A stretch of 64,000 bases of DNA. Origin: Megasphaera vaginalis (ex Bordigoni et al. 2020) (lineage in GTDB: Bacteria; Bacillota; Negativicutes; Veillonellales; Megasphaeraceae). Numbering within the stretch: position 1 is the first letter of the stretch; every line of letters starts with the position of its first letter. The notes under the pieces were generated by a model, which made no database searches, was not told the origin of the DNA, and saw only the letters and a list, made by a program, of their open reading frames with translations. Made by a program: the position numbers and the translations under genes. This document shows positions 7,994-29,401 of the stretch, in pieces. Location: assembly GCF_900240295.1 (NCBI RefSeq), contig NZ_OEQB01000002.1, forward strand, positions 62,001-126,000, given 5' to 3'.

Positions 7994-8025
7994 AAAAAGG
8001 AGAGGCGAGAGTCTCTCCTTTTTCC
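7994..8025 (+). terminator. Intrinsic terminator after the 3D-domain gene
   Basis: A perfect 11-base stem AAAAAGGAGAG/CTCTCCTTTTT with an 8-base loop, ending in a run of T. Confidence 0.9.
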
Positions 8026-20364: not shown

Positions 20365-20462
20365 CCGTCTTTGACGGCATTCGGCCACAGCGCCGCGGCG
20401 CGTTTCTTCCGCCGGGCGCACGTCTTGCCGCTTAGTTATAAAGTTGTGCAATAAATCTGTTC

Positions 20463-20499
20463 AACAAGTGTTGTATTTCTCTGGGAGTGTGGTATAATA
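20463..20499 (+). promoter_or_regulatory. his operon promoter with overlapping palindrome
   Basis: TTGTAT (20472-20477), 16-base spacer, TATAAT (20494-20499). The perfect palindrome CAACAAGTGTTG (20463-20474) overlaps the -35 and may be an operator. The 190-base stretch before hisZ has no T-box or his leader peptide that I can see. Confidence 0.55.
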
Positions 20500-20563
20500 T
20501 GCAACATAAATTCTTTAACAATTTAATGTAATAAAGAAAAGATAATTTGAGGAGATGTTTTCG

Positions 20564-21808
20564 TTGCAATACGATACCCTTGACGGTGTGAAGATGCTGC
20601 GCCATGACGAGATGAAAAATTACGAACGGATCCAGCGGCAGATCACCAAGGTTTTACAAGTACACGGCTGCAAAATTATCGAAACGCCGAGCTTTGAAGA
20701 CTACGATGTCTATCAGCAATTTTTTCCCGACTTACGCCGTGAAATGGTGAAAACCATTGATACAGACGGCCGGGTTCTCGTACTGCGGCCTGACGTGACG
20801 CTGCCTCTCGTTGAAACGGCGGCGCGGGAGTTTCCTGAAAAAAACAGGCTGCTGAAGTTCGGCTATGTGAGTACGGTCTTTCGCGAGTACTGCGGTAAAA
20901 CGGCGTACGGAAAAGAATTTTTGCAAGGCGGCGCGGAAATTTTCGGTGACGGCAGTGCCGAATGTGACGGCGAAGTTGTCGTGATGGCTGCAGAAATATT
21001 AATGGCTCTCGGCGTAGATGATATTCGCATCGATATGGGAACGGCCGCCTATACGCAGGCGCTGTTTTCCGGTTTGCAAATAGCAGAGAAGGAAAAAAAG
21101 AAATTGCGCCGCCTCTTGAATGAGCGGAATCTGGTCGCTTTTGCAGCGTATGCAGATACGCTGCCGTTATCGGAGACGGAACGGCAAGCGCTGAATGCCA
21201 TGCCCGTTCTCTTCGGTTCTTATGAGGAAACGTTGGCGAAAGCCCGCAGCTATTGTTTAAATCCGGCAATGCAGGCGGCGCTGGATCGCTTGGAGGCGGT
21301 GTACGCCTATGTTGACGCTGCCGGTTATCGGGATAAGGTGTATTTGGACTTCGGCTTTACAAGTCCGCTCGGCTATTATACGGATATGATTTTCAAAATA
21401 TACGTGGCCGGTGCTTCGTACGACGTTATCGACGGCGGCCGGTATGACGACGTGTCGGCTTGTTTCGGCACGCCGCGGCCGGCGTGCGGTTTCGGAATGA
21501 ACATTAACCTTTTATACGAATTTATGGATGATGCCGGCCTTTTGGCGGGAACGGAACCGACCTTGCAATTGCTCATCCGTTACGACCGCAGCGATCGGCG
21601 GCTTGCGTCTCAACTTGCGTCCTGGCGGCGACGGGGGTACCGCGTCGCCGCCTGCGGCACCGGCTGTCTTGTTGACAAGCGCGATTACAGTTTGGCGGCG
21701 GAGTATACTGAAGGAAACTATTATCGTCAGGGACAGGTTCTATCTCCGGAAGAATTGGAAGAATTGATAAGGGGGCTTTGCGATGGCGCTTCATATTGCC
21801 TTGGCTAA
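20564..21808 (+). CDS. hisZ: ATP phosphoribosyltransferase regulatory subunit
   Basis: A 414-residue HisRS-like protein without tRNA-charging role. Class II synthetase-like motifs are visible (ETPSFEDYDVY, LRPDVTLPLVE, YVSTVFREYCG, DGGRYDDV, CGFGMNINLL). HisZ joins the short HisG to form the feedback-controlled first enzyme of histidine synthesis. TTG at 20564 is chosen because GAGGAG is 9 bases ahead, while the ATG at 20555 directly abuts that site. The 3' end overlaps hisG by 26 bases. Confidence 0.93.
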   Translation: MQYDTLDGVKMLRHDEMKNYERIQRQITKVLQVHGCKIIETPSFEDYDVYQQFFPDLRREMVKTIDTDGRVLVLRPDVTLPLVETAAREFPEKNRLLKFGYVSTVFREYCGKTAYGKEFLQGGAEIFGDGSAECDGEVVVMAAEILMALGVDDIRIDMGTAAYTQALFSGLQIAEKEKKKLRRLLNERNLVAFAAYADTLPLSETERQALNAMPVLFGSYEETLAKARSYCLNPAMQAALDRLEAVYAYVDAAGYRDKVYLDFGFTSPLGYYTDMIFKIYVAGASYDVIDGGRYDDVSACFGTPRPACGFGMNINLLYEFMDDAGLLAGTEPTLQLLIRYDRSDRRLASQLASWRRRGYRVAACGTGCLVDKRDYSLAAEYTEGNYYRQGQVLSPEELEELIRGLCDGASYCLG

Positions 21809-22415
21809 GGGACGTATTCATAAGGCCGTCATGAACTGTTTGCGAGACAGCGGCTATGACTTTTCAACGTACGCTGAAGACAGTCGCAAATTAATATTTG
21901 AAGATACCGGCAAAGCCCTCAAGGTGACTCTGGTGAAGTCGCCTGATGTGGCTGTTTATGTCGAGCGCGGCGCCGCCGATATCGGCATCGTCGGCGAAGA
22001 TGTACTGGCCGAAGACTGTGCCGGTGCGGCCGTCTATGAGGTGTTCGATCTGGGAATCGGCCGCTGCCGCATGGCTGTCGCCGCTCCGCAGGGACGGAGC
22101 ATCGACCGGAGCCGCCGTCTGACGGTCGGTACAAAGTATCCGCGCTTGGCTCGGCAATACTTCGCCGCCAAACATCACAGCGTGGATATTATCAAGCTGA
22201 ACGGCTCTGTTGAGCTGGCGCCTCTGGTCGGGTTGGCCGACGTCATCGTCGATATTGTGGAGACAGGCAATACGCTGAAAGCAAACGGGCTGGAAGTATT
22301 GGCGTATTTCATGGATTTCAGTGCCCGCATGATCTGCAATAAGGTGGCTTTCAAGGTAAAATATGAGGAAATTCAGCATTTGATTACCATTATTGGCAGG
22401 AAAGAGATACAATAA
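21783..22415 (+). CDS. hisG: ATP phosphoribosyltransferase, short catalytic subunit
   Basis: A 210-residue short-form HisG that lacks the C-terminal regulatory domain and so needs HisZ. Motifs: ALAKGRIHK, DVAVYVERGAADIGIVGEDVL in part, GTKYPRLARQYF, KLNGSVELAPLVGLADVIVDIVETG in part. It couples ATP and PRPP. ATG at 21783 lies inside hisZ, with AAGGGGG just upstream. Confidence 0.97.
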   Translation: MALHIALAKGRIHKAVMNCLRDSGYDFSTYAEDSRKLIFEDTGKALKVTLVKSPDVAVYVERGAADIGIVGEDVLAEDCAGAAVYEVFDLGIGRCRMAVAAPQGRSIDRSRRLTVGTKYPRLARQYFAAKHHSVDIIKLNGSVELAPLVGLADVIVDIVETGNTLKANGLEVLAYFMDFSARMICNKVAFKVKYEEIQHLITIIGRKEIQ

Positions 22416-22437: not shown

Positions 22438-23730
22438 ATGGAATGGATAGAAGTGCCTGAAGAAGGATTTTCCCTGCAAGAGATACGTCGCTATACCCGG
22501 CGCGGTCAAGCAGGTGACGACGAGATACGCGGCGATGTTGAAGCCGTTCTGGCTGCCGTCAAGGAGCGGGGCGACGCGGCGTTAAAGCAATTTACCGAGC
22601 GTTTTGACGGTGTTCGTCTGGACCGTTTTTTGGTTTCGGAGACGGAAATCGCGGCGGCGCGGGAACAGGTCGGCGCCGGTTTTTTAGCTGTCCTTGAAGA
22701 AGGAAAGCGGAATATCGAGGCTTATCACAGAAGGCAGGTGCAGGAGTCGTGGGTCGATACCTTTCGTGACGGCGTCCGGCTCGGGGCCCGTTATACACCG
22801 ATTCAGCGTGTCGGCGTTTATGTGCCTGGCGGTACCGCGGCGTATCCGTCGACGGTGTTGATGGACGCAGTTCCCGCCAAAGTGGCGGGCGTTCCGTCCA
22901 TTGCCATTTTTACACCGCCTGCTGACGATGGCAGTGTCAATCCGTATATTTTGGCGGCAGCTTCCGTTGCCGGCGTTTCGGAGATTTATAAAGTCGGCGG
23001 CGCACAGGGCATCGCCGCCGCGGCTTACGGTACGGAAACGATCGCTCCTGTCTTTAAGATCGTCGGGCCCGGCAATGCGTATGTGGCCATGGCGAAACGG
23101 CTGGTTTTCGGTACTGTCGGCATCGATATGATTGCCGGGCCCAGTGAAGTCGGTATTCTGGCCGATGACACGGCGCATCCCGAATGGATTGCCGCCGACC
23201 TGTTGGCCCAGGCGGAGCATGACAGTCGCGCCGCCGTTTTTCTGGCGACACCGAGCCGGGCCTTGGCGGCAGCTGTTGAAAAGGCTGTCGCCGCGCAGCT
23301 GGAAACATTGCCGCGGCGCCGGATTGCCTCCGCGGCGCTGGCATGTTACGGCAAGATCTTCATTACGACTACGCGGGAAGCCGCCGTCGCCGTCATGAAC
23401 CTGATCGCACCGGAGCATCTGGAGATCGTCTTTGCCGATGCGGAGACCTATGTCCGGGACATCGTCAATGCCGGCGCCGTTTTTATCGGTCCCTATACGC
23501 CGGAGCCGCTCGGCGATTATATCGCCGGTCCCAATCACACGTTGCCGACTATGGGAACCGCCGCGTTTTCATCGCCTTTAGGCGTCTATGATTTTGTCAA
23601 GCGAACCAGTATACTGCAATACGACAAGGACGCGTTTGCCGCCGTTGCCGCTGCAGTGATGACTTTTGCCGACGTAGAAGGACTGCAAGGTCACGGCGCG
23701 GCCGTAAGGAGGAGGATGACAAATGAATAA
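22438..23730 (+). CDS. hisD: Histidinol dehydrogenase
   Basis: A 430-residue zinc enzyme that makes the two last oxidations to histidine. Seen are YVPGGTAAYPSTVLM, YKVGGAQGIAAAAYGTE, GPGNAYVAMAKR, AGPSEVGILADDTA, LLAQAEHDS (metal and catalytic region), and LIAPEHLEIV with the catalytic Glu-His. ATG at 22438 follows GGGGGAG; an earlier in-frame start would overlap hisG without a site. Overlaps hisC by 8 bases. Confidence 0.97.
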   Translation: MEWIEVPEEGFSLQEIRRYTRRGQAGDDEIRGDVEAVLAAVKERGDAALKQFTERFDGVRLDRFLVSETEIAAAREQVGAGFLAVLEEGKRNIEAYHRRQVQESWVDTFRDGVRLGARYTPIQRVGVYVPGGTAAYPSTVLMDAVPAKVAGVPSIAIFTPPADDGSVNPYILAAASVAGVSEIYKVGGAQGIAAAAYGTETIAPVFKIVGPGNAYVAMAKRLVFGTVGIDMIAGPSEVGILADDTAHPEWIAADLLAQAEHDSRAAVFLATPSRALAAAVEKAVAAQLETLPRRRIASAALACYGKIFITTTREAAVAVMNLIAPEHLEIVFADAETYVRDIVNAGAVFIGPYTPEPLGDYIAGPNHTLPTMGTAAFSSPLGVYDFVKRTSILQYDKDAFAAVAAAVMTFADVEGLQGHGAAVRRRMTNE

Positions 23731-24796
23731 TCGCTGGCTACGAGATACGATTCGTAATTTGGAACCGTATGCTGTTCCTGTCGTTCGGGAGTCTATCGTC
23801 ATCAATGCCAATGAAAGTCCGTATAATATCTTTGACTTTCCGGCCGTACGAGCTGAATTTTTCAGTCGACTCAGAAGTCTGGCGTCTAATCGGTATCCCG
23901 ATCCGATGGCGCAGGAACTTTGCGCCGTTTTGGCCGCGTATGCAGGGGCCGCGCCGGATCAGATTCTGGCCGGCAACGGCGGTGACGAAATTATCGGTTT
24001 AGTGCTGCATACCTTCGTCAACCCCGGCGACGATGTATTGATTCACTCGCCGACTTTTGACGTCTACGGTATTGTCGCCGCTTCGCTGGGAGCTAATGTT
24101 TGCGCCGTTCCCGACGATCATGATTTTCAGCGCAACGCAGACGTTTTCAGAAAGACTGTTCACGCGATGCAGCCGAAGGTGACATTTATCTGCAATCCGA
24201 ACAACCCGACGGGGCATCTTTGGCCGCTTGAAGATATTGCCGCTATTGCCGCCGCATCCGACAATCCCGTCGTCGTCGATGAGGCGTACGTGGAATTTTC
24301 CGGTCAGGACAGTGCCGTTTCGCTGCTGAAAAAGCATGATAACCTCATCATCATTCGCACGCTGTCAAAGGCGTTCGGTCTCGCCGGCTTCCGTATCGGC
24401 TATGCCGTCGCCGGGAAACGGGTCATCAATGCGCTGACGTTGACGAAAGAAGCCTATAATCTCAACAGTGTCAGCCAATTGATGGGAATCGTAGCGGTGG
24501 GGCACAGCGAGGAAATCTTGCGGCAGACCGTTCCGACTGTAGTTGCCAACAGGACGTACCTGACTGCAGAATTGAACCGGTTGGAGGGGATCCGTGCCTA
24601 CGACAGCGCCGCCAATTTCATTTTGGTCAAGGTCCCGGACGGACCGGCTGTCACCGCGGCTCTGAAGCGTGCCGATATCTGCGCCCGCGTATATGGCGAC
24701 GGCGTTTTGGCCGACTGCATCCGTATCAGTGTCACGACGCGGGAGGTAGCGGAGCTTTTGATCGCTGTTTTCAGTGGAGGGAAACATTATGCGTAG
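23723..24796 (+). CDS. hisC: Histidinol-phosphate aminotransferase
   Basis: A 357-residue class II PLP aminotransferase. NANESPYN at the N-terminus, FICNPNNPTGHLW, VVDEAYVEFSG, and the Schiff-base lysine in RTLSKAFGLAGFRIGY are plain. It makes L-histidinol phosphate from imidazole-acetol phosphate. It starts inside hisD after AGGAGGATGACAA and overlaps hisB by 8 bases, so translation is coupled through the operon. Confidence 0.97.
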   Translation: MNNRWLRDTIRNLEPYAVPVVRESIVINANESPYNIFDFPAVRAEFFSRLRSLASNRYPDPMAQELCAVLAAYAGAAPDQILAGNGGDEIIGLVLHTFVNPGDDVLIHSPTFDVYGIVAASLGANVCAVPDDHDFQRNADVFRKTVHAMQPKVTFICNPNNPTGHLWPLEDIAAIAAASDNPVVVDEAYVEFSGQDSAVSLLKKHDNLIIIRTLSKAFGLAGFRIGYAVAGKRVINALTLTKEAYNLNSVSQLMGIVAVGHSEEILRQTVPTVVANRTYLTAELNRLEGIRAYDSAANFILVKVPDGPAVTAALKRADICARVYGDGVLADCIRISVTTREVAELLIAVFSGGKHYA

Positions 24797-25373
24797 CGCG
24801 CAAGTAGAACGGGAAACGGCGGAAACGCAGATCGCCGTCAGCCTTGATCTGGATGGCACCGGTAATTTTGCCGGGACGACGGGAATCGGGTTCTTCGATC
24901 ATATGCTGAACCTTTTCGCCTGTCACAGCGGTATTGACGTGACGCTTCATGTTCACGGCGATCTCGACGTCGATACACACCATACGCTGGAGGATTTGGC
25001 TATCGTTATGGGAGACGCGTTGACGAAGGCCTTGGGGGATAAGCGCGGCATTCATCGTTACGGCCTGTTCTATTGTCCGATGGACGAAGCGCTGACCCGC
25101 GTCGTCATCGATTTGAGCGGCAGGCCGTATCTTGTTTTTGACGTGTCTCTGGGCGTCGAACGGATCGGCGACTTTGAAACGGAAATGCTGCGGGAATTCC
25201 TTTATGCGTTTGCCGTACACGGTAAGATGAATCTCCATGTGACGAACTTGTACGGCGCCAATGCGCACCACATTGTGGAGTCCGTTTTTAAAGGGCTGGG
25301 ACATGCGCTGCAAGAAGCGGTGCGCATGGAGGGGGACGGGACGGCCATCCTTTCGACGAAGGGGGTTCTTTAG
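24789..25373 (+). CDS. hisB: Imidazoleglycerol-phosphate dehydratase (monofunctional)
   Basis: A 194-residue IGPD with the manganese-binding pairs GIGFFDHML, DTHHTLEDLAI and NAHHIVESVFKGL. It is only the dehydratase; the HAD histidinol-phosphatase domain found fused in enterobacterial HisB is absent. ATG at 24789 follows GGAGGGAAAC; the earlier GTG overlaps that site. hisH follows by 2 bases. Confidence 0.97.
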   Translation: MRSAQVERETAETQIAVSLDLDGTGNFAGTTGIGFFDHMLNLFACHSGIDVTLHVHGDLDVDTHHTLEDLAIVMGDALTKALGDKRGIHRYGLFYCPMDEALTRVVIDLSGRPYLVFDVSLGVERIGDFETEMLREFLYAFAVHGKMNLHVTNLYGANAHHIVESVFKGLGHALQEAVRMEGDGTAILSTKGVL

Positions 25374-25375
25374 CC

Positions 25376-25990
25376 ATGAAGATCGCCATTATCGATTACG
25401 GCGTCGGCAACATTGCCAACGTGTACAATGCCTGGCGGCGAATCGGTGTTTCCGCCGTCGTCACGCGCGATGCCGCCGTCATTCGTTCGGCAGATATGAT
25501 CGAACTGCCCGGCGTCGGCGCTGTTCGCGACGCGTTGGCTAATTTGCGGCGTTATGAATTGATTCCCCTTTTGCAGGAAGAAGTCGGCAAAGGCAAATTT
25601 TTTGTCGGCGTTTGTCTGGGCATGCAGCTGCTTTTTGAAAAGGAATACGAAGGCGGAGAAGCCGAGGGACTCGGGTTTTTACCAGGCTCCGTCGTACCCT
25701 TTCGGATCGCCCTGAAGGTGCCTCACATGGGGTGGAACGAGTTGTCCTTCCGCCGTCCCCATTGGCTGCAGGAGAAGCTGCCGCCGCGCCCGTACGTTTA
25801 TTTTGTGCATTCTTACTATAAGACGCCTGTCGATTCGGACGACGTCATTGCTGTCGCCGCGTATGAACATGACGTGCCTGCCGTCTGCGGCCGCGATAAC
25901 ATTCTCGGCATGCAGTTTCATCCTGAAAAAAGCGGCTCCGTCGGTGAACAGATTTTGCGAAATATAGCGGCGTACGCAAGGAAAGGATAA
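25376..25990 (+). CDS. hisH: Imidazole glycerol phosphate synthase glutaminase subunit
   Basis: A 204-residue class I glutamine amidotransferase. The nucleophile is in VGVCLGMQLLFE, and the catalytic His-Glu pair is in MQFHPEKSG. It hands ammonia to HisF. IDYGVGNIANV at the N-terminus is the usual beginning. Confidence 0.97.
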   Translation: MKIAIIDYGVGNIANVYNAWRRIGVSAVVTRDAAVIRSADMIELPGVGAVRDALANLRRYELIPLLQEEVGKGKFFVGVCLGMQLLFEKEYEGGEAEGLGFLPGSVVPFRIALKVPHMGWNELSFRRPHWLQEKLPPRPYVYFVHSYYKTPVDSDDVIAVAAYEHDVPAVCGRDNILGMQFHPEKSGSVGEQILRNIAAYARKG

Positions 25991-25994
25991 AGAG

Positions 25995-26711
25995 ATGATC
26001 GTATTTCCGGCAATAGATATACAAAAAGGAAAGGCTGTCCGCCTGCGTCAGGGCGTCGCCGAGGACAGCACCGTCTATTTTGACGATCCCGTTCAGGCAG
26101 CCGTAAAATGGTGCGACGAAGGGGCGTTGTTTTTGCATGTCGTCGATCTGGACGGCGCCTTTTCCGGCGCTTCGGAAAATGCCGACGTCATTGAAGCCAT
26201 TTGCGACGCCGTCGATATTCCCGTTGAAGTGGGCGGCGGCATTCGCACGGAAGAGACGATAGAAGATTACCTGGAACGCGGTGTGAGCCGCATTATTATC
26301 GGTTCGAAAGCGGCTGAAGACGAGTCGTTTTTGATCGACATGGCACAAAAGTATGCGTCCAGCCTGGCTGTTTCCATCGATGCCAGGAACGACGTTGTTG
26401 CTACGCACGGTTGGGTCGACGGCAGCGATAAAAAAGTCATTCCCTTTGCGCGTTTTCTGCTTTCCATCGGCATCCGGACGCTCGTATACACCGATATCGG
26501 TCGCGACGGTATGTTGACGGGGCCGAATCTGGATATGCTTGAAAAACTGCAGCAGCTGCCTTTTATCCGACTCATCGCTTCCGGCGGCATCAGCAGCATC
26601 GAAGATTTGAAGACGTTGCGGCGTCTCGGATTGTATGGCGCGATTACGGGCAAGGCCTTATACGAGGGCAGGCTGACGATGGCAGAAATTCGTTCGTTGC
26701 GGGGGATGTAA
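25995..26711 (+). CDS. hisA: ProFAR isomerase
   Basis: A 238-residue (beta/alpha)8 barrel. The first catalytic aspartate is in PAIDIQKGKAVRL and the second in YTDIGRDGML; GGGIR and ASGGISS are the phosphate sites. Converts ProFAR to PRFAR. ATG at 25995 is preceded by AAGGATAAAGAG. One base separates it from hisF. Confidence 0.97.
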   Translation: MIVFPAIDIQKGKAVRLRQGVAEDSTVYFDDPVQAAVKWCDEGALFLHVVDLDGAFSGASENADVIEAICDAVDIPVEVGGGIRTEETIEDYLERGVSRIIIGSKAAEDESFLIDMAQKYASSLAVSIDARNDVVATHGWVDGSDKKVIPFARFLLSIGIRTLVYTDIGRDGMLTGPNLDMLEKLQQLPFIRLIASGGISSIEDLKTLRRLGLYGAITGKALYEGRLTMAEIRSLRGM

Positions 26712-26712
26712 T

Positions 26713-27477
26713 ATGCTGGCAAAACGTATTGTTCCTTGTCTCGACGTACGTGACGGACGCGTCGTCAAGGGCAGACAGTTCAAGGGAATTCAGGACGTCG
26801 ATGATCCCGTGAAATTAGGGAAGTTTTATTCGAACCAATCTGCCGATGAACTGGTTTTTTACGACATTACGGCGACCCATGAAAAGCGGGGGATTTTTAT
26901 CGATGTTGTCCGCGCTGTGGCGGAAACGATTACGATTCCTTTCACCATCGGCGGCGGCATTGGCAGCGTCGGTGATTTTCAGAATGTGTTGCAGGCGGGA
27001 GCCGATAAGGTATCGGTCAATTCCGCCGCTGTCCGTTCGCCGGTCCTGATTCGATTGGCCGCGGAGCGCTTCGGCAGCCAGTGTGTCGTCCTGTCGATCG
27101 ACGCGAAGCGGTGCGGCGACGACAGGTGGCGCGTTTTTGTTGACGGCGGCCGTACGGACACGGGCCTTGACGCACTGCAATGGGCGAAGGAGGGCGTGGC
27201 GCTAGGCGCCGGTGAAATTTGTCTCAACTCCATTGACGGCGACGGTGAAAAACGAGGTTTTGACTTAGCCTTGAACAGTCTTTTTGCCAGGGAACTGTCC
27301 GTGCCGATTATCGCTTCCGGCGGCGCCGGAACAATGGAGGACTTTCGCAATGTCTTTGCAACCGGCGTTGATGCGGCGTTGGCCGCTTCGGTCTTTCATT
27401 TCGGACAGATAGCGATTCCGGAGCTGAAACGGTATCTGTCCGGTACGGGCTTACCGATGAGAGAGGTGGGAGAATGA
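26713..27477 (+). CDS. hisF: Imidazole glycerol phosphate synthase cyclase subunit
   Basis: A 254-residue barrel. The catalytic aspartates are in [14 protein letters not shown] and VLSIDAKR; the phosphate sites are in GGGIGS and ASGGAGT. With HisH it yields imidazole glycerol phosphate and AICAR. Its TGA stop overlaps the hisIE start as ATGA. Confidence 0.97.
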
Positions 27478-28118
27478 TGGAAACTGCAGGGTTGGATACG
27501 ATCCGGTATGACAGCCGCGGCCTGGTTCCCGCCATTGTACAGGAGGCGCGAAGCGGGGCGGTGCTGATGTTGGCCTATATGAATGCCGAGTCGTTGGCGA
27601 AAACGCTGGCAGACGGCGAAACCTGGTTTTACAGCCGCAGCCGCCGGAAGTTGTGGCATAAAGGCGAGACTTCAGGACATTTTCAGCGAGTGAAAGCTAT
27701 TGCCGTCGACTGTGACAGCGATACGATCTTGCTCCAAGTGGAACAGATCGGCGCCGCCTGTCATACAGGCAACAAAACTTGCTTCTATCGTGCCTTGGCG
27801 GGAGCGGAAGGGTTGTATACGGGAAGTCCGGCCGTTCTGCATGCGCTCCACGAAGAGATCGTCAAAAAAAAGAAGCATCCTACGGAGAAGTCGTATACGG
27901 CGTACCTATTGCGGGAAGGAATGGATAAGATCTGCAAGAAAATAGGCGAAGAAGCGGCGGAAGTCGTGATTGCCGCCAAGAATGCGGATTATCGCGGCGA
28001 CGATCCGTCTTTGCGTCAGGAGGTTTGCAAGGAATCGGCGGATCTGCTGTATCACCTTTCCGTCCTTTGGGAAGCGGCGGGAGTCGATGTTAACGAAGTC
28101 ATGCGCGTTTTGGAATAA
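27474..28118 (+). CDS. hisI: Fused phosphoribosyl-AMP cyclohydrolase/phosphoribosyl-ATP pyrophosphatase
   Basis: A 214-residue bifunctional HisIE. The HisI part (1-~115) has [25 protein letters not shown] and the zinc ligands in [12 protein letters not shown]. The HisE part (~120-214) has the MazG-like [13 protein letters not shown] and [14 protein letters not shown]. It carries out steps 2 and 3 of the pathway. Two ATGs in tandem start it at 27474. Confidence 0.96.
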
Positions 28119-28182: not shown

Positions 28183-29304
28183 ATGAAAACGGTTATTTTT
28201 GATGTAGACGGCGTTCTTCTCAGTGAAGAGCGATATTTTGACGTGACGGCGTTGACCATATGGGAATGGTTATACAGTCCGTCTTATATGGGACTTGACG
28301 GTGCAGCCGTTCATTTTGATGTTTCTGACGGCGAGATTACCGCATTACGGCATCAGCTGTTCGGCGCTGACGCCGTCCTGTCCTGGCTGAAGGGACATGG
28401 CGTAAACAGTAACTGGGACATGGTCCATGCCTATCTCGCCGTCACGCTGCTCTTGTTGGCGAGAGACTGCCGGCGGCAGCGCGGCAAGAGCGATTTCGTG
28501 CCGCCGTTGACGCAGGAGGCGGTGACGATTTTGGGACGGAACTGGCGTGGTCTGTCGGTACCGCCGGCGGCGGAGATCCTCGCGGCTTTGGCGGCGGCAG
28601 TACCGGCCGATGCCGACAAGGATGGCGTTTTTGCCGCGCTGACGGCGCAGGCAGTCGATGAATTGGGAGCGTCAGCGGCGTCCTGGCTGCCTCTTCGTTC
28701 GCCCTTCTGGCAACTCCATGTCAATGTCTTTCAGCACTGGTATTTCGGCGATGACCTGTATGCCGAGACCTATGGCGGACAGCCGCTTCAATCGGGAAAG
28801 GATGGCTTCCTGACACGGGAGCGGCCGTTGGCGCCGGCGACGGCGATACGGGAAATGTTCGTAACGCTGAAGGAGCGGGGCTATACATTGGCTGTTGCCA
28901 CAGGCAGGTCGACGGCGGAAACGATGATTCCTTTCCGAACGTATCATTGGCTGGAAGCATTCGACAAGAGCCACATGGCGACGGCCAGTGATGTTGCCGC
29001 CGCCTCAAAGCAGCTGGGGCGTTCCCTTGATAAACCGCATCCCTTTGCCTACTATTTGGGAGCCTTCGGCAACGTGCCGGAACGGTACGGCGACTATGTT
29101 GAGATGCCGGAACGGTTTCTGAACGGCACCTATTATGTTGTCGGCGATTCGTTGGCCGATGTTCTGGGCGCCCGCTCAATGGGGGCGGTCATGATTGCAA
29201 CCTTGACGGGACTTGAAGGCGAAGCGGCGCGACCCATGTTTGAACGGGAAGGCGCAGACTTCATCGTTGCCAAGGTTACGGACATTTTGGCAATCCTGAC
29301 CTGA
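28183..29304 (+). CDS. HAD-superfamily phosphatase with large cap, last gene of the his operon
   Basis: A 373-residue HAD hydrolase. Motif I is FDVDGVL (nucleophile D7, acid D9), motif II T240 in VATGRST, a motif III lysine in SLDKPHPF, and motif IV D322/D326 in GDSLADVLGA. All catalytic residues are intact. A cap insertion of about 225 residues lies between motifs I and II, much larger than in phosphoglycolate phosphatases. ATG at 28183 lies 64 bases after hisIE with no terminator between; a strong terminator follows. No other histidinol-phosphatase (HisN, HisJ/PHP or HisB-N) is in the operon, so it may fill that step; this is inference. Confidence 0.8.
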   Translation: MKTVIFDVDGVLLSEERYFDVTALTIWEWLYSPSYMGLDGAAVHFDVSDGEITALRHQLFGADAVLSWLKGHGVNSNWDMVHAYLAVTLLLLARDCRRQRGKSDFVPPLTQEAVTILGRNWRGLSVPPAAEILAALAAAVPADADKDGVFAALTAQAVDELGASAASWLPLRSPFWQLHVNVFQHWYFGDDLYAETYGGQPLQSGKDGFLTRERPLAPATAIREMFVTLKERGYTLAVATGRSTAETMIPFRTYHWLEAFDKSHMATASDVAAASKQLGRSLDKPHPFAYYLGAFGNVPERYGDYVEMPERFLNGTYYVVGDSLADVLGARSMGAVMIATLTGLEGEAARPMFEREGADFIVAKVTDILAILT

Positions 29305-29331
29305 CAGGCAGATGGAAGCGTTCTGCCGACG

Positions 29332-29382
29332 ACAAGGGCCGCAACAGCAGGGAGAAAGAACACCTGCTGTTGCGGCCCTTGT
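29332..29382. terminator. Strong terminator ending the his operon, shared with pirin gene
   Basis: A perfect 20-base stem (29332-29351/29363-29382) with an 11-base loop, followed by TCGTTTAT on the plus strand. It lies between convergent genes. Confidence 0.9.
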
Positions 29383-29401
29383 TCGTTTATCGGAATGCCC
29401 G

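Follow-up and report, generated by a model that had tools for sequence, protein, structure and literature searches.

The analysed window, a stretch of 64,000 nucleotides from Megasphaera vaginalis, carries a histidine operon whose genes all lie on the forward (+) strand: hisZ (20555..21808), hisG in its short form (21783..22415), hisD (22438..23730), hisC (23723..24796), hisB (24789..25373), hisH (25376..25990), hisA (25995..26711), hisF (26713..27477), and hisIE (27474..28118). The genes were assigned with NCBIfam, and each scored above the cut-off of at least one model (TIGR00070 for hisG, TIGR00069 for hisD, TIGR01141 for hisC, NF002111 for hisB, TIGR01855 for hisH, TIGR00007 for hisA, TIGR00735 for hisF, and NF002747 for hisIE) except hisZ, which reached 252 bits with TIGR00443, slightly under the cut-off of 272. 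These assignments bear out the initial annotation, which had placed the his genes between 20.5 and 28.1 kb and had read HisB as a dehydratase only: the protein has 194 aa and is without the N-terminal phosphatase domain.

The order hisZGDCBHAFIE is followed by an open reading frame without internal stops (28183..29304, +) that encodes a 373 aa phosphatase of the HAD superfamily, our candidate for a new type of histidinol-phosphatase, and then by a strong terminator. As previously described, this is the next gene before the terminator: the hisIE stop and the HAD start are separated by 64 bases that contain no terminator, and a hairpin that closes the operon lies 3′ of the HAD stop codon (29326..29385, +), with a folding energy of −48.9 kcal/mol compared with −21.4 ± 3.3 for shuffled sequences (z −8.5), a core of 19 bp (29333–29351/29363–29381), and a tail that is T-rich as read by eye. 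The HAD gene is probably transcribed together with hisZGDCBHAFIE, as the final gene of the unit. No his T-box or other Rfam element was found upstream of the operon or of HAD genes unlinked to his genes. Upstream of hisZ, shortly 5′ of a TATAAT box, lies the palindrome CAACA-AG-TGTTG (20462–20473), a candidate operator, possibly for HisR, a TrpR-family regulator to which the control of Veillonellales his operons has been ascribed (PMC9413887).

The HAD protein has all four catalytic motifs that had been attributed to it: motif I with D7 and D9 (FDVDGV; 28201..28209, +), the nucleophile and acid/base aspartates, motif II with T240 (ATGR), motif III with K284 (DKPHPF), and motif IV with D322 and D326 (GDSLAD). 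The four motifs were present in 53 of 53 aligned relatives with T240S as the single exception, and the D, K, and D positions were invariant. Membership in the superfamily was indicated by PF00702, PF13419, and PF13242, all above cut-off, and by an AlphaFold model (pLDDT 96.4) showing a Rossmann-like core with an inserted, all-helical cap, the helices of which lie between residues 16 and 197. The initial annotation had described this cap as unusual and 225 residues long; it is indeed large, but measures about 200 residues in the model, and it has a precedent in the Staphylococcus aureus structure 1QYI, which has the same fold. In a fold search 1QYI scored Z 44.6, and beyond it only generic HAD proteins were recovered (Z 16–20), so that the structure gave no hint of the substrate. 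The protein family matches no curated functional model. At E ≤ 0.001 in NCBIfam, the window HAD matched neither TIGR01656 (Histidinol-ppas, HisB-N type) nor the SerB/HAD-IB models, and it likewise did not match TIGR01856 (PHP-type HisJ) or PF00459/TIGR02067 (IMPase-type HisN). As no histidinol-phosphatase (HolPase) model was matched and 1QYI was deposited without a function, the protein is a HAD phosphatase by membership, and its role as a histidinol-phosphatase is one that we strongly infer.

To the initial annotation, the window held no HisN, PHP, or HisB-N enzyme, and this absence extends to the whole source genome (G000; 2.2 Mb, 99% complete). The known types covered by the genome-wide search were those with HisJ, IMPase, HisN, and HisB-N models. 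HisJ gave no match in G000 even at E 0.001, and neither an IMPase-family protein nor a HisN match was found there. A HisJ- or IMPase-type HolPase elsewhere in the genome, one of the two findings that had been named as together counting against the proposal, was looked for without any being detected in G000. The sole HisB-N-like protein above the TIGR01656 cut-off in G000 is GmhB, identified as such because its gene sits in a heptose cluster resembling hldE-hldD-gmhB-waaF (gene names assigned by reading the sequences), as it also does in G012.

The distribution of the HAD gene was examined in the 61 genomes of the order, hisD being present in 41. Within the GTDB family (17 genomes), HAD was found in 13, always approximately 5.7 kb downstream of hisD. 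The co-occurrence check that had been suggested for genomes without the known enzymes was run with hisD, and the result was fully complementary: 22 of the 41 hisD-bearing genomes have HAD, 19 have HisJ, none has both, and none has neither. The HAD carriers comprise 13 genomes of family f1, eight of f2, and G375, and the HisJ carriers 17 genomes of f4 together with G012 and G013; the HisJ of G013 is truncated at the edge of a contig and for that reason scored below cut-off. Seen from the other side, all 22 hisD-bearing genomes without HisJ carry HAD, and none of them has HisN above cut-off. In 18 of these 22 genomes HAD either follows hisIE immediately or is separated from it by one gene, and in four f2 genomes it is found elsewhere; in genus g4 of f2 (G338, G341–G343) it is unlinked to his genes. 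HisJ above cut-off was also seen in four genomes in which hisD was not found (G009, with loci L015/L037, G364, G369, and G370). In G006 (Megasphaera sp. NM10; L012/L014/L046), the reading frame of HAD is interrupted around residues 19–24, which may reflect either an error in sequencing or recent pseudogene formation.

Fisher's exact test gave 4e-12, a value that ignores shared ancestry; as shared ancestry shrinks the effective sample far, the informative part of the pattern is the changes of enzyme. Two such changes occurred within genera, and the genomes being related, independent events in the order number about two to three. G012 and G013 group together as a single clade of their genus (support 95/91); in both, the operon is intact through hisIE, HAD is gone, a peptidyl-prolyl isomerase gene comes next, and HisJ is encoded elsewhere. 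Conversely, G375 has a HAD-bearing operon and its six congeners have HisJ. The G375 operon (L129) has the megasphaeral order hisZGDCBHAFIE-HAD, with genes 33–68% identical to those of the window, and the congeners G376 and G373 have a different his operon order; the simplest reading is that the operon of G375 was replaced along with its phosphatase.

This pattern bears on the idea that GmhB, a heptose bisphosphate phosphatase related to HisB-N, moonlights as the HolPase while HAD does something else. GmhB is suitably widespread, a protein above the TIGR01656 cut-off occurring in 17 of 17 genomes of the GTDB family and being the only HisB-N-like protein above it, but these 17 include the hisD-less genomes, and GmhB is equally present in HisJ-bearing ones. 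Were GmhB enough, HisJ would not be needed wherever HAD is absent; together with the heptose-cluster location in both G000 and G012, this makes a moonlighting GmhB very improbable.

Scanning genome contigs with the family profile yielded 55 loci, which also showed the relatives of the window to be Megasphaera and its neighbours. Outside the order, two further lineages have his gene orders of their own around HAD. The Ktedonobacteria have the order hisZ-like, hisG, HAD, hisH, hisA, hisF, and the Clostridia have hisD, hisB, HAD, and then a fumarase gene; these homologues are 27–36% identical to the window protein. HisJ was above cut-off in none of these his-linked Ktedonobacteria or Clostridia genomes, and the Clostridia genomes gave no HisN-like match at all. 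In the Ktedonobacteria (L070–L078, L082, L091), HAD forms the N-terminal half of a 776–829 aa protein in the his operon, beginning at locus position 8001 in most of these loci; the C-terminal half of ~400 residues shows a weak likeness to APH-type kinases (PF01636, E about 0.002, below cut-off), giving a phosphatase joined to a kinase-like domain inside a his operon.

The Bacilli homologues (34–38% identity) are not near his genes, and in 13 of 17 loci (L051–L067; Brevibacillus, Aneurinibacillus, Ammoniphilus) serA lies within about 4.5 kb of HAD. HisJ was above cut-off in four of 15 Bacilli genomes. Bacilli IMPases were considered as HisN candidates and set aside, those examined lying away from his genes. 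Because the Bacilli genes are not his-linked and are often near serA, the substrate of this branch is less certain; the serA proximity hints at phosphoserine, and the Bacilli branch and 1QYI could share the same or a related substrate of this kind. In the tree, for which a midpoint root was used for drawing only, the Bacilli formed one clade, which joined the Clostridia and Ktedonobacteria with his linkage and did not fall outside all his-linked members, so the family may have had a histidine role from early on.

The Bacilli loci also lend some substance to the view that the window HAD is a phosphoserine phosphatase, or a dual phosphoserine/histidinol-phosphate enzyme, that lies in the his operon by chance. 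Phosphoserine and histidinol phosphate share the form R-CH(NH3+)-CH2-OPO3, there are SerB-like proteins that have taken on the HolPase role (PMC5764234), and SerB was above cut-off in no genome tested. That last point cannot discriminate, since the HAD-less genomes of the order are likewise without SerB above cut-off. The HAD distribution, on the other hand, tracks hisD and mirrors HisJ, and HAD is linked to his genes in three lineages, leaving this explanation with very little probability.

Ten cap residues, nine of them within two motifs, were invariant in 46 sequences from the his-linked lineages and the Bacilli: K70, N75, N77, W78, D79, Q184, W186, Y187, D190, and E213. The first motif is K70 ... 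N75-S-N77-W78-D79 (28390..28419, +) and the second F183-Q184-x-W186-Y187-x-G189-D190 (28729..28752, +). Three hisD-less f2 genomes hold four HAD copies, two of them in G336, and all four copies break between one and five of the ten residues while keeping D7, D9, T240, K284, D322, and D326. The changes are N77E, Q184L, W186I, D190T, and E213D in L110; D79E in L126; K70Y, N75E, N77M, and Q184E in L127; and K70Y, N75E, N77T, and Q184E in L112, so that the first motif is broken in four of four copies and the second in three of four. As the set is broken only in hisD-less genomes, selection on the cap goes with the presence of the pathway. The retention of HAD copies in such genomes indicates that some copies do something else, and the changed cap residues suggest that L110, L112, L126, and L127 may have a new substrate. 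HAD might instead serve the his pathway in housekeeping or damage control, another protein being the true HolPase; the retained copies could be read in this way, but the idea is scarcely credible, as their cap motifs are eroded and the 22 hisD-bearing genomes left without any HolPase would be exactly those without HisJ.

We conclude that the gene is very probably the organism's histidinol-phosphate phosphatase (EC 3.1.3.15), from a HAD family to which this reaction had not previously been attributed. The earlier proposal of a new type of HolPase is supported, at the level of sequence comparison, by the HAD/HisJ complementarity, with further support from two other lineages in which HAD is linked to his genes and from cap erosion seen only where hisD is absent; the type would be distinct from the HisB-N, PHP, IMPase, and SerB-like HolPases. 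The gene, its motifs, the operon layout, the distribution, and the conservation are observed here, and substrate, kinetics, co-transcription, and the roles of single cap residues are predicted. By standard HAD chemistry, as the conserved motifs suggest, D7 would attack the phosphate, with Mg2+ held by D7, D9, D322, and D326, D9 acting as acid/base, and T240 and K284 holding the phosphoryl group. The large helical cap would close over the active site, and its two conserved motifs, K/N/N/W/D and F-Q-x-W-Y-x-G-D, are probably responsible for recognition of L-histidinol phosphate at its aminoalkyl-imidazole end. HAD would thereby fill the slot taken by PHP-type HisJ in related genera.

Of the enzymes of the histidine pathway, this phosphatase is the one that genome annotations most frequently lack, and a survey of amino acid pathways found histidinol-phosphate phosphatase to be the commonest low-confidence step (42 of 148 organisms; PMC7311316). 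With a newly defined family and its clear cap signatures, the HolPase step could be annotated where it is now missing in many Bacillota and in some Chloroflexota, and Megasphaera and its relatives, where wrongly predicted to be histidine auxotrophs, could be reassessed; 1QYI also gains a testable function. We lean slightly towards a broader reading, in which the whole 1QYI-like family, spanning Veillonellales, Clostridia, Ktedonobacteria, Brevibacillus/Aneurinibacillus/Thermoactinomycetaceae, and perhaps Staphylococcus, is one ancient and widespread HolPase class, which would account for many of the gaps in histidine synthesis that lack an explanation and would supply a function for 1QYI, whose structure was solved in 2003.

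HolPases are known from the HisB-N, PHP, and IMPase families (PMC5516325), and SerB-like HAD-IB proteins have also been found to fill a missing HolPase step (PMC7606547, PMC5764234). For Firmicutes, a study from 2022 on the regulation of his genes gave only HisJ for this step. Our literature search, with most subscription journals outside its reach, returned no publication naming the present family as a HolPase or tying it to histidine synthesis, nor did it bring up anything relevant for 1QYI or for the locus tags it probably has. The IMPase-type HisN catalyses the same reaction but belongs to an unrelated family and is absent from G000, and the PHP-type HisJ/HisK perform the same step with an unrelated fold and from an unrelated family, HisJ being mutually exclusive with HAD in the hisD-bearing genomes of the order. 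The only close solved structure is 1QYI (hypothetical protein Q8NW41, from structural genomics), which resembles the window protein over its full length including the cap (phmmer 7e-61, profile 2e-109; 365 residues superposed at 2.1 Å), although some cap positions invariant in the window family are changed in it. The HisB N-terminal domain and GmhB (HAD-IIIA) share the superfamily, and HisB-N the reaction, but the window HAD has a large cap and, besides lacking a TIGR01656 match, matches TIGR01662 only weakly, below cut-off. The SerB-like HolPases (Neisseria NMV_1317 and genes of Burkholderia, Pseudomonas, and Marinobacter) share HAD chemistry and the reaction proposed here; they belong to subfamily IB, whereas the window HAD, without an IB match, folds with HAD-IA-like proteins but has an enlarged helical cap.
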